A program made the position numbers and the translations under genes. The notes under the pieces were generated by a model. That model was not told where the DNA came from, searched no databases, and saw only the letters and a list, made by a program, of their open reading frames with translations. Below are positions 11,355 through 18,332 of a stretch of DNA of 64,000 nt, one piece after another. Every line of letters starts with the position of its first letter. Positions within the stretch are counted from its first letter, which is position 1. Location: positions 62,001-126,000 of the forward strand of contig NZ_FNPB01000005.1 in assembly GCF_900107195.1 (NCBI RefSeq), written 5' to 3'. Origin of the DNA: Halobellus clavatus (lineage in GTDB: Archaea; Halobacteriota; Halobacteria; Halobacteriales; Haloferacaceae).

Positions 11355-12776
11355 ATGAAAGAGTACCAAACCATCACCGAGATCAGCGGTCCGCTGGTGT
11401 ACGCCGAGGTCGACGAGGCCATCGGATACGACGAGATCGTCGAGATCGAGACGGCGCAGGGTGAGACCCTGCGCGGTCAGGTCCTCGAATCCTCGGACGG
11501 CGTCGTCGCCATCCAGGTGTTCGAGGGGACCAGCGGTATCGACCAGGAGGCATCGGTTCGCTTCCTCGGCGAGACGATGAAGATGCCCGTCACCGAGGAC
11601 CTGCTCGGACGCGTCCTTGACGGCTCGGGCCGGCCGATCGACGGCGGCCCCGACATCGTCCCCGAGGAGCGACAGGACATCGTCGGCGCGGCGATCAACC
11701 CCTACTCCCGGGAGTACCCCGAGGAGTTCATCGAGACGGGAGTCTCGGCCATCGACGGGATGAACACGCTTGTTCGCGGCCAGAAGCTCCCGATCTTCTC
11801 CAGTTCGGGTCAGCCCCACAGCGAACTGGCGATGCAGATCGCCCGCCAGGCCAGCGTGCCCGAAGAAGAGGAGGGCGACGGCGAGGCGTCGGAGTTCGCC
11901 GTCATCTTCGGCGCGATGGGGATCACCGCCGAGGAGGCAAACGAGTTCATGGAGGACTTCGAGCGCACCGGTGCCTTGGAGCGCTCGGTCGTCTTTATGA
12001 ACCTCGCAGACGACCCCGCAGTCGAGCGGACGGTCACCCCGCGGATGGTGCTGACGACCGCGGAGTACCTCGCCTTCGAGAAGGACTACCACGTCCTCGT
12101 CATCCTGACGGATATGACCAACTACTGCGAGGCGCTCCGTGAGATCGGGGCCGCCCGCGAGGAGGTCCCGGGCCGTCGTGGCTACCCCGGATATATGTAC
12201 ACCGACCTGGCGCAGCTCTACGAGCGCGCCGGCCGCATCGAGGGGCGCGACGGGTCTGTCACGCAGATCCCGATCCTCACGATGCCGGGCGACGACGACA
12301 CCCACCCGATTCCGGATCTGACCGGCTACATCACCGAGGGGCAGATCTACGTCGACCCCGACCTCAACAGCCAGGGCCTCCAGCCCCCCGTGAACGTCCT
12401 GCCTAGCCTCTCGCGGCTGATGGACGACGGGATCGGCGAGGGCCTCACCCGCGCGGACCACGGCGACGTCTCCGATCAGATGTACGCCGCCTACGCGGAG
12501 GGTGAAGACCTGCGCGACCTCGTGAACATCGTCGGTCGCGAGGCGCTCTCCGAGCGTGACAACAAGTATCTCGACTTTGCGGACCGCTTCGAGAAGGAGT
12601 TCATCGACCAGGGCTTCGATACCAACCGCGGCCTCGAGGAGACCCTCGAGATCGGCTGGGACCTGCTGTCGATGCTGCCGAAAGAGGAGCTCAACCGCGT
12701 CGACCAGGACTTCATCGAGGAGTACTACCGCGAGGACGCTGGCGGCGAGACCGAAACCGAAGCGACGGCCGACTGA
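11355..12776 (+). CDS. atpB: A-type ATP synthase non-catalytic subunit B
   Basis: 473 residues, starting one base after the atpA stop codon. The P-loop position is degenerate ([13 protein letters not shown]), which is normal for the regulatory B subunit. [14 protein letters not shown] and [20 protein letters not shown] identify the family. In many haloarchaea subunit D follows closely; here four light-energy genes come first and atpD begins 4.8 kb further on. Confidence 0.97.
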
Positions 12777-12908
12777 GCACCGGAACGGCGTTCGCAGATC
12801 GCACTCGCTTTGCTTTCTACCGGCCACCGTCCAACACCGTCGCGTCGGCGCTGTGGCTGATTCGGGGAGAGCCCCACCTGTTTTGTCGCTACGATCCCTC
12901 GGGTCGGT

Positions 12909-14663
12909 ATGGAACGGAGGGCTGACGTCGACGATGGGTCCGATCGCGCTCTCGGACAGGGCTTCGAGACTGAGCAGCGAGCGGCGACCTCCGCGAGCAC
13001 CGACGCCGTCGACGAAGCGTTGAAAACGCGGGCGATGGACGAGGCGCCGGTGGGCATCACTATCGCGGACGCCCGTTCTCCGGATATGCCGCTCGTGTAC
13101 GCCAACGCAGCCTTCGAGCGGATCACCGGCTATTCGCCGGAGTACGCCGTCGGGCGCAACTGTCGGTTCCTGCAGGGAGAAGAAACGAGTGAGGAACCGG
13201 TCGCGAAGATGCGCGCGGCCATCGAAGCCGGTCGCGCGACGACGGTCGAAATCCGCAACTACCGCCGCGACGGAGAACTGTTCTGGAACGAGGTCACGAT
13301 CGCACCGCTCCGCGACGACGACGGCGAGGTCGCGTACTACGTGGGATTCCAGCAGGACGTCACCCGCCGCAAGCGCGCCGAGCGGGCGGCCGACCGGCGT
13401 GCGGGACGGATCGAGCGGGAGCGAACGGCGCAGAACCGCCTCCTCGAACGGCTCGACGGCGTGGTCACCGACATCTCGGAGGCGGTAACACGGGCCGACT
13501 CACGTTCGGAACTCGAGCGGGCGGTCGCCGGAACGATCGACGAGACGTACGCCGGCGCGTGGATCGGGACCTACGACCCCAGCGACGAGTCGATCCGCGT
13601 CCGGAACGCCCTCGGGTCGACCGGCGGCGTCGACAGCGACAGTCGGATCCCGCTCGAGGGATCGCCGGCCGAGAGCGGCGGTTCGCTCTCCGACTCGCCC
13701 GTCGTGTCCGCGGCCACGGCCGACGCCGTCTCCGGCGCAGTCGCGGACCAGTACGTGCACATCGAACCCATCGACGGCTCGGGCGCGGACGCCGTATCAG
13801 CCGTGGCCGCCGTCTCCCTGCACTACGGCGACGCCACGTACGGGGCCATCGGTGTGTACGCTCGCGAGGATCCCTTCCACAGCTACGAACGGGCTGTCTT
13901 GACTGCCCTAGGCCGGACAGTCGCCATCGGAATCAACGCCCTCGAGAGTCAGCGAACCCTCCAAAACGAATCCGTCATCGAGGTCCGCCTCTCGATCGGC
14001 GAACATCCCCTCGTCAGCTTCGCCAGTGCCCTCTGCTGTCGGCTGTCGTACGCCGGCTCCGTCGGCGACCGCGACCGTTCCTCGATGCTGTTCGAGGTGG
14101 CGGCCACGGAGGACGACCTCGACACGGAAGCGGTTCAGGACGCGGCCTCGGCGGTCGGACCGATCCAGGTCCACAGCGTGCTCGCGGAATCCGCCGATCA
14201 TCCGGTGATCGAGCTCTCACTCACCGGCTCCCGGTTCAATGGCCTGCTCGCCGAGTACGGCGCGGAACTTCGAGAGTTGACCGTCGGGAGCGGCGAGGCC
14301 AAACTCACCGCCGAAGTCGGCCGGGAGTCGCTGGCACAATCGCTCGCTGACGCGGCGACTCACCGGTTCACAGACGCGGAACTGACCGGTTACCGCCGAC
14401 ACCAACAGCGCAACGAGACGTCCCGGGAGTTCGTGGCCGACCTCAAAGCCGAGTTGACGGGGCGACAGCAGGCCGCACTGACGCGGGCGTACACGGCGGG
14501 GTACTTCGAGTGGCCCCACGAGGCGACGGGCGAGGAGATTGCCGAATCGATGAACATCGGTCGATCCACCTTCCACCAGCACCTGCGGGCGGCCCAGCGC
14601 AAACTCGCCGGAGCCATCATCGATCGGGAGACGTTCCGGCCACAGGGCGAGACCGACCGATAG
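12909..14663 (+). CDS. bat: Bat-like bacterio-opsin activator with LOV-type PAS domain
   Basis: 584 residues. Order: PAS/LOV domain (~45-155), helical linker, GAF-like domain (~185-345), a middle region, and a C-terminal HTH_10 domain (~516-572: [20 protein letters not shown], then [18 protein letters not shown]). The PAS domain carries the full flavin-LOV signature: GRNCRFLQ with Cys85, RNYRRDG and FWNE (Asn117, Asn127), and [10 protein letters not shown] (Gln148/149). In LOV proteins the Cys forms a blue-light adduct with FMN. By family knowledge Bat activates bop and carotenoid genes under low oxygen and light; it stands directly upstream of bop here. Light sensing is inferred from the residues. 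Stop TAG ends at 14663. Confidence 0.88.
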
Positions 14664-14677
14664 CCCAACTGGTTGTG
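14663..14677 (+). promoter_or_regulatory. Candidate Bat-binding upstream activating site of bop
   Basis: GCCCAACTGGTTGTG lies directly after the bat stop codon, centred about 50 nt before the bop start. It resembles the published Halobacterium bop activating sequence as I recall it (ACC-N5/6-TAGTT-NGG type) at most defined positions and at the expected distance. The recall of the consensus should be checked before relying on this. Confidence 0.45.
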
Positions 14678-14686
14678 TATGCCGCT

Positions 14687-14712
14687 TACACCCTTTACCC
14701 TCCTATAATTAT
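14687..14712 (+). promoter_or_regulatory. Core promoter region of bop
   Basis: TTACACCCTTTACCC (14687-14701) is placed 20-33 nt before the ATG, where the Halobacterium bop gene has a TTACAC-containing TATA region. It is followed by an unusually AT-rich run (TATAATTATAT). Either part could serve as the TATA box; the spacing favours the first for a near-leaderless mRNA. Confidence 0.45.
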
Positions 14713-14719
14713 ATGTACT

Positions 14720-15463
14720 ATGCCACAACCTGGTAGCGAAGGAATCTGGCTATGGATCGGCACGCTCGGAATGTTCCTGGGGATGCTGTACTTCATCGCC
14801 AGGGGCTGGGGCGAAACGGACCGGCGGCGGCAGGAGTTCTACATCGTCACGATATTCATCACCGCCATCGCGTTTGTAAACTATCTCTCGATGGCGTTGG
14901 GCTTCGGGCTCACGACCGTCACGGTCGGTGGCGAAGAACTCCCAATCTACTGGGCGCGGTACACTGATTGGTTCTTCACCACGCCGCTCCTGCTCATCGA
15001 CCTCGGCCTCCTCGCCGGGGCGAACCGGAACGAACTCGCCTCGCTCGTCGGCCTCGATATGCTGATGATCGGGACGGGTGCGCTCGCGACGCTTTCGGGC
15101 GGCGCCGGTGTCCTCTCCGGTGGCGCGCGTCGGATCATCTGGTGGGGCGTCTCGACGGGCTTCCTGCTCGTCCTGCTCTACATGCTGTACGGCTCCCTCG
15201 GTGACAAAGCGAGCCGGCTCTCCGGCGACGCCGCGTCGACGTTCAGCACCCTCCGGACGCTGATCGTCGTCGTCTGGCTGGTCTACCCGGTGTGGTGGAT
15301 CGTCGGGACCGAGGGCCTCGGTATCATCTCGCTGAACATCGAGACGGCTGGATTCATGGTCTTAGACCTGGTCGCCAAGGTCGGCTTCGGGATCATCCTG
15401 CTGTCGAGCCGCGAGGTGCTCGACGCCGCAGGCAGCGCTTCCGGCGCTGAAGCGGCCGACTGA
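14720..15463 (+). CDS. bop: Bacteriorhodopsin-type light-driven proton pump
   Basis: 247 residues, seven membrane helices. All proton-pump residues are present (bacteriorhodopsin numbering in brackets): Arg80 (82), Asp83 (85, acceptor), Thr87 (89), Asp94 (96, donor), Glu198 and Glu208 (194/204, release group), Asp216 (212) and the retinal Lys220 (216). [16 protein letters not shown] and [20 protein letters not shown] are diagnostic; Asp rather than Thr at position 83 excludes a chloride pump. Leu at the position 93 equivalent fits green absorption. Start at 14720 ([10 protein letters not shown]) gives the usual N-terminus. Close to cruxrhodopsin/archaerhodopsin types; the pumped protons would drive the ATP synthase encoded around it. 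Confidence 0.96.
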
Positions 15464-15620
15464 TCGGTCCAGCCGCCGTCCTTCCGTAATCGCATCGCGA
15501 GACTGATTGTTGCGACTGGGCGCCGACGGACCGCCGCGTTCGAGGCGTCGCGTCCGGCGGCGTCCGTAACCGTTTCCCGTCGGCTACGCCAACCCTGACT
15601 CCAACCCGACGGACTGAATA

Positions 15621-16448
15621 ATGACGACGACACTCACGTACCTCCAGTTCCACTTGGCGTTCCTGCTGCCGGCGGTGATGCTCCTTGCAGCCACGGGAGT
15701 CGTGAGCCGCGGGCGGATCCGGGAGTCAGGAACGAGCTGGAGCAGCGTCGGCCTCCGTCGGTACTGGGTCGGCGTGGCGATCATCACCGTCGTCGCGATC
15801 GCGTACACGACGCCGTGGGACAACCTCCTCATCGCCCGTGGCGTCTGGTGGTACGGCGACGGCACCACGATCGCGACCGTGGGGCACGCGCCGATCGAAG
15901 AGTACCTCTTCATCCTCGTCCAGCCGTGGCTGACCGCGCTGTGGCTCTCACACCTCTCGGTTCCCACCGAGTGGCCGGCGGCCGACCGTCCTGTCGGGAG
16001 CCGAGCGCTCGCGCTGTTGCTCGCCGCGGGCATCGGAGTCGCGGGCTGGCGGCTGCTGTCGCTGGACGCGACGTTTTACCTCGGCGCGACGCTCGCGTGG
16101 GCCGCCCCGGTCATCGCGCTCCAGTGGGCCGTCGGTGCACCGCAACTGTGGGCCCGTCGCCGACTCGTCACTGTCGGGACGCTCGTTCCCACCCTGTATC
16201 TCTGCACCGTCGACCGAGTCGCCATCGAACTCGGGATCTGGGTCCTCTCAGAGCAGTACACCACGGGGCTGTACCTCCTCGGACTGCCGGTTGAGGAGGC
16301 GACGTTCTTCCTCGTGACGAACCTGTTCGTGGTGCAGGGGCTCGTCCTGTACCGACCGGTGGTGAACGAGCTGTTGTCCGCGGAATCGACGCCGGGGGCA
16401 GCCTGGCGGAGACGACTGCGGACGCTCGGCATCGACATCGACCGGTGA
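15621..16448 (+). CDS. crtY: Lycopene beta-cyclase (CrtYc-CrtYd fusion type)
   Basis: 275 residues with about seven membrane segments. It has two tandem halves, each with the cyclase signature: PWDN (65-68) and APIEEYLF (~90-97) in the first, LPVEEATFFLVTN in the second. By family knowledge this membrane cyclase converts lycopene to beta-carotene, the precursor of retinal. It lies 157 bp after bop and overlaps brp by 4 bp (GTGA), so the two retinal-pathway genes are translationally coupled. Confidence 0.92.
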   Translation: MTTTLTYLQFHLAFLLPAVMLLAATGVVSRGRIRESGTSWSSVGLRRYWVGVAIITVVAIAYTTPWDNLLIARGVWWYGDGTTIATVGHAPIEEYLFILVQPWLTALWLSHLSVPTEWPAADRPVGSRALALLLAAGIGVAGWRLLSLDATFYLGATLAWAAPVIALQWAVGAPQLWARRRLVTVGTLVPTLYLCTVDRVAIELGIWVLSEQYTTGLYLLGLPVEEATFFLVTNLFVVQGLVLYRPVVNELLSAESTPGAAWRRRLRTLGIDIDR

Positions 16449-17569
16449 CGATGGCCGGACCGACACCCACAGAGGCACCCGAACGGACGCGTGTGGGTCC
16501 GGCTGAGCGTTCCACCGACGGCCACACGCCGGACTCGGTCGCCCGCGCTCCGATGCTCGCGATCGGCGGCTGGCCGGCGTGGCTCGCAATCGGCGGCGTG
16601 ACCCTTCTCGCTGTGCTCGGCGCGCTCGTCGCCCCGTCGCTGTCGGTCCCGCGGTGGGCGCGGTACGCCCCGCTGGCAGTGAGTCTCGTCGTGTTCGGGC
16701 TGCCTCACGGTGCCGTCGATCACCTGGCACCCGCCCGTGTGGTCGGCGACCGGCCGACGGGCCGGTGGCTCGCCGCCGTCGGCCTGCTCTATCTGGTCCT
16801 CGGCGTCGCCTACGCCGCGCTCTGGTACGTCGCACCGGCGGTGTCCGCCGCCTTCTTCATCGCCCTGACGTGGTTTCACTGGGGGCAGGGCGACGTCTAC
16901 GCGCTCGACGCGCTCGGTGCGACCCATCTCGCGGAGCGGGTGACCCGCCTCGGGACGCTCGTCGTCCGCGGTGGCCTGCCGATGCTCGTCCCGCTGCTGC
17001 GGTTTCCGGACCGCTACCGCGACGTCGTCGACGCGTGGGTCGCCCTGTTCGGCGGCGGGCTGGACGCCTCGTGGTTCTTCGCCCCCGAGACGCGGGCCGT
17101 CGTCGGAGGCGCGTTCGCGATAGTCACGCTCGCGACGCTCACGCTCGGTCGACGCCACGGCGGTAGTCCCGCGTGGCGTCGGGACGCTGCGGAGACGCTC
17201 CTGCTGTGGGCGTACTTCCTGCTCGTCCCGCCGATCGTCGCCGTGGGGATCTACTTCTGCGTGTGGCACTCGCTCCGGCACATCGCGCGACTCGTCGCTA
17301 TCGATCCCGCGGCCCGGACGGCCTTCGCCGAGCGCGGGGCCGTGGCCGGGCTCCGCCGGACGGGCCGGGATGCACTGCCGCTGACCGCGCTTTCGATCGC
17401 GCTGCTCGTCGGCGTCGCGGTCGGCGTCGGCGTCCAGACTGACGTGCGAACCCTCGCCGCGCTGTATCTCGTGTTCATCGCCGTCCTCACGCTGCCACAC
17501 GTCGCAATCGTGACGTGGATGGACCGGGCCGAACGCGCGGGTCTGGCCCGGCTCGCCGCCGAACAGTAA
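16445..17569 (+). CDS. brp: Brp/Blh-type beta-carotene 15,15'-dioxygenase
   Basis: 374 residues from the GTG at 16445 (or 372 from an ATG at 16451), with about eight to ten membrane segments. The iron-binding histidines are visible in [11 protein letters not shown] (His88, His93), [11 protein letters not shown] (His145), [14 protein letters not shown] and [13 protein letters not shown]. The family cleaves beta-carotene into two retinal molecules. With the adjacent cyclase and opsin genes it completes a lycopene-to-rhodopsin pathway in one block. The first ~40 residues are polar and not conserved-looking. Confidence 0.92.
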
Positions 17570-17579
17570 AAGGTTAACA
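17570..17579 (+). promoter_or_regulatory. Candidate atpD promoter
   Basis: AAGGTTAACA overlaps the end of brp and is centred about 29 nt before the atpD ATG. It would let atpD be transcribed apart from the upstream light-energy block. Evidence is spacing and local AT content only. Confidence 0.4.
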
Positions 17580-17603
17580 GGCTCGGCTTACAACGAGGAT
17601 TCA

Positions 17604-18332
17604 ATGGCCGAAGACGTCAAACCCACTCGAAAGAACCTGATGGCGATCGAGGATCGGATCCAGCTCTCCGAACGGGGTCACGACACGCTCGAACAGAAGC
17701 GTGACGGCCTCATTATGGAGTTTATGGACATTCTCGATCAGGCCCAGGACGTCCGTTCCGAACTGAACGGGAACTACGAGACGGCGCAGACAAAACTCAA
17801 TATGGCGCGGGCGATGGAGGGCGACGTCGCTGTCCGTGGCGCGGCCGCTGCGCTCAAAGAACACCCGGAGATCACGACCCAATCGAAGAACATTATGGGC
17901 GTCGTCGTCCCACAGATCGAGTCCTCGAAGGTCCGGAAGTCGCTCGACGAACGCGGGTACGGCCTGCTGGGCTCTTCGGCGCGTATCGACGAGGCGGCCG
18001 ACGCGTACGAGGAACTGCTGGAGACCATCATCCTCGCGGCCGAGGTCGAGACCGCGATGAAGAAGATGCTCAAAGAGATCGAGACCACGAAGCGCCGCGT
18101 CAACGCGCTCGAGTTCAAACTCCTGCCCGAACTCTACGAGAACCAGGAGTACATCGAACAGAAACTCGAAGAGCAGGAGCGCGAGGAGATCTTCCGGCTC
18201 AAGAAGATCAAGAACAAGAAGGAAGAAGAGGAAGCCGAAGAGGAAAAAGAGGCCGAGGAGGAAGCGGAGGCCGAAGAGGCGGAGGCCGACGCAGAATCGG
18301 AAACGGAAGAGACGGTTTCTGCAGACGACTGA
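17604..18332 (+). CDS. atpD: A-type ATP synthase subunit D (central stalk)
   Basis: 242 residues. The conserved core (~1-205) is two long helices: [20 protein letters not shown] at the start and [20 protein letters not shown] near the end, both typical of subunit D. After ~205 comes a strongly acidic Glu/Ala tail of about 35-40 residues, longer than in non-halophiles. The protein is essential for the rotor, yet its gene is separated from atpB by bat, bop, crtY and brp. Confidence 0.95.

Follow-up and report, generated by a model that had tools for sequence, protein, structure and literature searches.

The Bat-like regulator encoded directly upstream of the bacteriorhodopsin gene (bop) of Halobellus clavatus probably functions as a one-component, blue-light-responsive activator of bacteriorhodopsin. 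Its BAT and HTH_10 domains and the linked bacteriorhodopsin gene are features of the Bat family. The gene lies in a window of 64,000 nt, which is the whole stretch of DNA analysed (assembly GCF_900107195.1, contig NZ_FNPB01000005.1, positions 62,001-126,000), and its features and those of its neighbours are collected in Table 1.

Table 1. Features of the bat-bop locus of H. clavatus, in coordinates of the window.
Feature	Coordinates	Strand	Description	Basis
atpB	11355-12776	+	A-type ATP synthase subunit B; borders the cassette upstream	
bat-like gene	12909-14663	+	584 aa; LOV, GAF-like, BAT and HTH_10 domains, without receiver domain	
LOV/PAS domain (PAS_9)	13050-13364	+	Residues 48-152	Pfam, matches to solved LOV domains, Foldseek
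GRNCRFLQ motif	13152-13175	+	Residues 82-89; adduct Cys85 is TGT at 13161-13163	Sequence, conservation
Asn117 codon	13257-13259	+		Sequence, conservation
Asn127 codon	13287-13289	+		Sequence, conservation
Gln148 codon	13350-13352	+	LOV signalling Gln	Sequence, conservation
Long helix	13362-13493	+	Residues 152-195; connects LOV and the GAF-like block	AlphaFold2 model
BAT domain (PF15915)	13971-14435	+	Residues 355-509	Pfam
HTH_10 DNA-binding domain	14454-14609	+	Residues 516-567	Pfam
Conserved palindromic element	14664-14688	+	CCCAACTGGTTGTGTA plus CTTA; UAS-like; adjoins the bat stop and precedes bop	Promoter comparison, genome scan
bop	14720-15463	+	Bacteriorhodopsin with Asp/Thr/Asp helix-C motif; nearest solved structures 4pxk ('Bacteriorhodopsin') and cruxrhodopsin-3	
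Lycopene cyclase-domain protein	15621-16448	+		
brp	16445-17569	+	Brp/Blh beta-carotene 15,15'-dioxygenase (retinal synthesis)	
atpD	17604-18332	+	A-type ATP synthase subunit D; borders the cassette downstream	

PAS_9 (83.3 bits), PF15915 (BAT, 74.6 bits) and PF04967 (HTH_10, 67.5 bits) all score above their Pfam cut-offs in H. clavatus Bat. The GAF_2 match at residues 201-342 and the GAF score fall below the cut-off, and the AlphaFold2 model places an alpha/beta block that is GAF-like at residues 199-350. This model, calculated from an alignment of 44 sequences (mean pLDDT 84.9, pTM 0.60), runs from a PAS core ending at residue 150 through a 44-residue helix, the GAF-like block, a helix at residues 325-352 and the BAT block to the C-terminal HTH. 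Moreover, residues 40-170 match the NCBIfam model of YtvA-family photoreceptors with 150.9 bits, below the full-length cut-off of 250, as expected because only the LOV part is matched.

Conservation of the LOV domain was followed in the nearest Bat orthologues (57-70% identity to H. clavatus Bat), hereafter group 1, whose loci were fetched from 30 of 34 genomes (L001-L030, L001 being H. clavatus itself). An earlier note on this DNA had read a LOV signature in the bat ORF, and the ORF, Cys85 (G82-RNCRFLQ), Asn117 (R-N-Y) and Asn127 (FW-N-E) all stand where it placed them. It had left the signalling Gln at 148 or 149; Gln148 is the LOV Gln, invariant in all 30 group-1 loci, whereas Gln149 was discarded, as that position varies among group-1 rows, 3 of 29 having Arg there. 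The H. clavatus locus and the 29 others keep all four LOV residues, and codon 85 is TGT in 16 cases and TGC in 15, a synonymous variation that leaves the Cys untouched. The pocket positions, which were picked from what is known of LOV domains, are invariant in 11 cases out of 11, against 60 of 120 positions across the domain (hypergeometric p about 3e-4).

The best solved matches in phmmer are LOV proteins, namely 6hmj (E = 7.7e-36), 9vf7, CrPhot LOV1 (8qi8, 5e-30) and YtvA (2pr5), at E-values beyond chance resemblance, and Cys85, Asn117, Asn127 and Gln148 align gap-free with the corresponding residues of CrPhot LOV1, the motif region being ungapped. In Foldseek searches with the Bat model, LOV structures rank first and the first 50 PDB rows are all LOV proteins or LOV constructs; isolated LOV domains superpose well, as with 9vf8 (TM 0.91) and 8qi8 (TM 0.90, 47% identity), with TM scores normalized by target length. 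The modelled PAS fold is thus in agreement with solved LOV structures. A generic PAS redox domain was rejected in view of the conserved full LOV pocket. Sequence, model and conservation all lend good support to the canonical LOV photosensor domain that the earlier note had proposed, and its presence in Bat is considered very likely; photochemistry like that of other LOV domains is likewise predicted for H. clavatus Bat and seems likely.

The residue at the adduct position was then compared across the Bat family, in a set of 80 named loci together with loci from other genomes, sampled by likeness to H. clavatus Bat and not by opsin. The Bats of 30 of the 80 named loci gave no LOV match, which counts against the light-sensor reading, and were left out of the counts; the structure alignment used 43 of the 49 listed named LOV-Bats. 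Exclusion of L115, whose LOV part is cut off, of the short-flank duplicates L161-L190, of near-copies and of L001/L231 left 126 distinct LOV-Bats, H. clavatus included, which carry Cys in 100 cases, Pro in 13, His in 11, and Leu and Ala in one each. Opsins within 3.3 kb were classed, the nearest one in each case, by their best match to four reference opsins from these loci. Beside bacteriorhodopsins of the window type (cruxrhodopsin-like), Bat has Cys in all 65 rows, while beside the Halobacterium type it has Cys in none of 11 (9 His, 2 Pro). Among the 13 halorhodopsin-linked rows, Cys and Pro are equally frequent (6 each, with 1 Ala), and Pro is therefore not the rule for this opsin; the 37 rows with no opsin seen within 3.3 kb comprise 29 Cys, 5 Pro, 2 His and 1 Leu. 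An outlier, L098, whose opsin is only 43% identical to H. clavatus bop, falls in the window-type class because classes were assigned by best match to the four references. Four genomes (G017, G071, G077 and G048) each have a Cys Bat by a window-type bacteriorhodopsin and a His Bat by a Halobacterium-type one, and in G018 both Bats are present with no opsin seen beside the His Bat. Other LOV proteins and opsins also occur in the H. clavatus genome, including five further Cys-type LOV proteins (L031, L033, L034, L035 and L037), Pro-type LOV copies (L031, L036 and L038) and two more opsins (L233 and L234), with helix-C motifs that are sensory-rhodopsin-like and halorhodopsin-like.

These counts bear on the strongest of the alternatives, according to which the domain would be a flavin-based redox or oxygen sensor, as proposed for Cys-less BAT-LOV*, with flavin reduced at low oxygen driving bop and the Cys adduct being incidental. 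An incidental Cys should drift, yet none of the 30 group-1 loci departs from it and 100 of 126 LOV-Bats carry it, with both codons in use, and redox sensing of this kind appears unlikely, despite the persistence of His and Pro clades in the same family. Its appeal comes from Halorubrum hochstenium BAT-LOV*, which has Pro in place of Cys and was shown to bind flavin and to alter its shape when chemically reduced (Yee et al. 2015, PMC4682037, in the portion consulted), and from H. salinarum, where Bat is described as an oxygen-inducibility factor (passages of PMC2253796 and PMC3184054).

On a quick Bat tree with long branches and a midpoint root, built without the adduct column, the states of the adduct residue require at least 5 changes, against 25.1 for shuffled labels; the link between Cys and opsin is thus a clade pattern and not many independent events. 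The His rows form one clade, which includes the Leu row and has Cys Bats as its sister, and most Pro rows fall in one halorhodopsin-linked clade, so that Cys looks ancestral, unless the root lies inside the His or the Pro clade. Three Pro rows (L075, L076 and L078) form a paralogous Bat clade in which Asn127 and Gln148 are also lost, and these Bats are therefore probably without LOV-type flavin signalling. A broader reading, for and against which we see even odds, is that a LOV-Bat competent for photochemistry would be the older bacteriorhodopsin switch and the textbook Bat a derived form that lost its Cys, with the flavin chemistry matched to the opsin and the Cys form travelling as a sensor-pump-retinal cassette in the ATP synthase operon. 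The matching it supposes, which shares that even balance, is Cys with cruxrhodopsin-like bacteriorhodopsin, His with the Halobacterium type and Pro in one halorhodopsin-linked clade.

Three observations support bop as the target of Bat, as the earlier note had assumed: the two genes are adjacent, they co-occur, and the bop promoter holds a conserved element. A bop match adjoins bat in all 30 group-1 loci, which belong to a clade with named members in Halobellus, Halorubrum, Haloplanus and Halobaculum. Among 170 genomes of the taxonomic family of H. clavatus, group-1 bat was found in 34 and bop, defined as a match of at least 85% to H. clavatus bop, in 33; comparing both lists by hand gave 33 genomes with both genes, one with bat only (G140) and none with bop only. 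At the same thresholds, the 17 genomes of the genus of H. clavatus are all concordant, both genes being present in 9 and absent in 8. Separately, Halorubrum sp. CSM-61 (L094) has retained a group-1 Cys-LOV Bat ahead of atpD, and no bop adjoins it.

The element, CCCAACTGGTTGTGTATGCCGCTTA, follows the bat stop immediately, with the palindrome itself at 14664-14679 and the bop ATG about 53 nt on. Across all 27 loci caught by the ATG-anchored start pattern, the position of the palindrome AACTAGTT, or of a near form, shifts by no more than about 2 nt. In a scan of 29 group-1 loci, AACTAGTT was found with 0, 1 and 2 mismatches in 17, 10 and 2 loci, respectively, at -52 to -54 in 27 of them and at -38 in L013 and L029, maybe owing to the choice of ATG; the scan took in L012, L013 and L018, missed by the start pattern, and L010, outside the scan list, is covered by the ATG-anchored comparison. 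The extended pattern occurs once in the 64-kb window, with none expected from shuffles, the composite of palindrome and CTTA occurs once in the whole genome, and near-exact palindromes were found only before bop in H. clavatus. Many Cys-type loci outside group 1 carry ACCnAACTAGTTnGGTA at about -53, and most loci with Halobacterium-type bacteriorhodopsin a diverged form such as ACCGTACTGTTTGGG at -54. The palindrome agrees with the UAS of H. salinarum, which we take to be ACCcnactagTTnG. A UAS has been reported 5' to bop and near brp and crtB1 (PMC1447603, part consulted). From its position and co-variation, the palindrome is a putative Bat target, and regulation of bop by Bat is predicted as likely. 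A wider regulon through the same element was rejected, as only 4 looser matches exist besides the bop site, against 3 + 1 for the reversed-pattern control.

The bat-bop-lycopene cyclase-brp cassette sits between atpB and atpD (11355-18332), with a like placement in several genera, and a linkage of bacteriorhodopsin with H+-ATPase genes has been published for Haloarcula (PMC1885257, part consulted). Of 99 Cys rows other than H. clavatus, 37 are flanked by atpB upstream, by atpD downstream or by both (32 beside window-type bacteriorhodopsin and 5 with no opsin seen), compared with 0 of 26 non-Cys rows; the other 62 Cys rows show neither, partly because of short flanks, although at least L083 has neither despite flanks of 5-6 kb. 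The Haloferax loci L110 and L149, assigned by name, and L044, L045 and L046, assigned by kinship, have a Cys-LOV Bat in the atpB-atpD interval, with neither an adjacent bop nor a UAS-like element ahead of atpD. Control of atpD through the palindrome was rejected, since in 8 bop-less loci (6 distinct) with Bat directly before atpD every site in the gap differs from the 17-nt pattern at 7 or more positions.

The Haloferax arrangement means that such Bats can have other targets, and a photoactive LOV domain might serve these, or act in repression, while bop responds mainly to other inputs; at least five other Cys-type LOV proteins in the H. clavatus genome would fit with this. Such a division seems improbable in view of the strict bat-bop adjacency and co-occurrence and of a near-exact palindrome restricted to bop. 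It is hardly credible that the domain is a PAS domain that resembles LOV through decay or chance and holds no flavin: some PAS domains of the same genome do lack the LOV signature, but here the whole pocket is conserved, solved LOV domains match with low E-values and the model resembles them.

Direct blue-light control of bop by Bat would thus be the favoured mechanism. FMN in the LOV domain would absorb blue light and form an adduct with Cys85, Gln148 would pass the change on to the central sheet, and the helix at residues 152-195 would transmit the signal via GAF and BAT to the HTH_10 of a dimer, altering binding at the palindrome at 14664-14679 and, in turn, bop transcription. A low-oxygen input is probably added by GAF or by the flavin redox state. 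By analogy with H. salinarum, activation is the more likely effect of light on bop. On balance, blue-light control of bop via Cys85, which the earlier note had put forward, is rated as more probable than not.

Light induction of bop as such is already known from H. salinarum, where Bat, Brz and Brb are all required for light to enhance the bop promoter (PMC3184054, part consulted), and where Bat is without the reactive Cys according to the consulted part of PMC4844311. Since H. salinarum induces bop by light with a Cys-less Bat, the Cys is not strictly needed for light control and need not be the light input. H. salinarum Bat resembles H. clavatus Bat in its PAS/LOV-like, BAT and HTH_10 domains, with a GAF domain matched by a GAF-like block in H. 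clavatus, and in its location in the bop neighbourhood, and a Halobacterium relative (L153) has a diverged element at -54 before bop; however, L153 and L191, both from Halobacterium, carry His where H. clavatus Bat has Cys, and L153 also differs in a weak receiver-domain match before LOV and in a bop located 1.5 kb off on the opposite strand. The distinguishing feature of H. clavatus Bat with respect to H. salinarum Bat is therefore likely its photochemistry. EL222 is a bacterial LOV-HTH protein that is not known to carry GAF or BAT domains. By description, it follows the blue-light, one-component DNA-binding logic that is proposed here for Bat (PMC4844311, part consulted).

BAT-LOV* belongs to the same family by domain make-up, and its flavin binding, shown in a Cys-less relative, also favours the light-sensor reading of H. 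clavatus Bat; like the latter it has such a LOV domain, predicted to bind flavin in H. clavatus, within an HTH regulator, but it differs in the Pro that replaces Cys and in its receiver domain, and Pro-type loci here are mostly halorhodopsin-linked; its quenching Trp172 corresponds to Phe69 in H. clavatus Bat, counting 16 residues before the Pro/Cys column from the numbering seen in PMC4682037. LOV-HTH proteins resembling Bat are already in print: in the consulted section of Losi et al. (2014, PMC4844311), HTH domains are reported for 30% of the LOV proteins of halobacteria, LOV is fused to GAF and HTH in archaeal proteins, and one arrangement is closely Bat-like, whereas section 2.3 of that survey names no link to bop, a promoter element, an opsin class or the ATP synthase operon. 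Among the papers listed by the literature search, with subscription journals mostly outside its scope, none was recognised as connecting a Cys-LOV Bat with bop, with the bop promoter or with that operon, and PMC9601134 and PMC5812497 had no bearing on the matter. According to PMC4682037, as far as consulted, the idea that Bat itself responds to light has been raised but not firmly demonstrated.

How light, as distinct from low oxygen, enters bacteriorhodopsin control is a long-standing question, and the textbook Bat lacks the adduct Cys that H. clavatus Bat has, so that light could be sensed directly by the activator of the pump. As this Cys is intact in a Bat beside bop, the old question of the light input becomes open to a one-residue test, for which the Cys, His and Pro clades provide natural controls. 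Moreover, the combination of a sensor, a pump, retinal synthesis and ATP synthase at a single locus would amount to a compact light-energy module.
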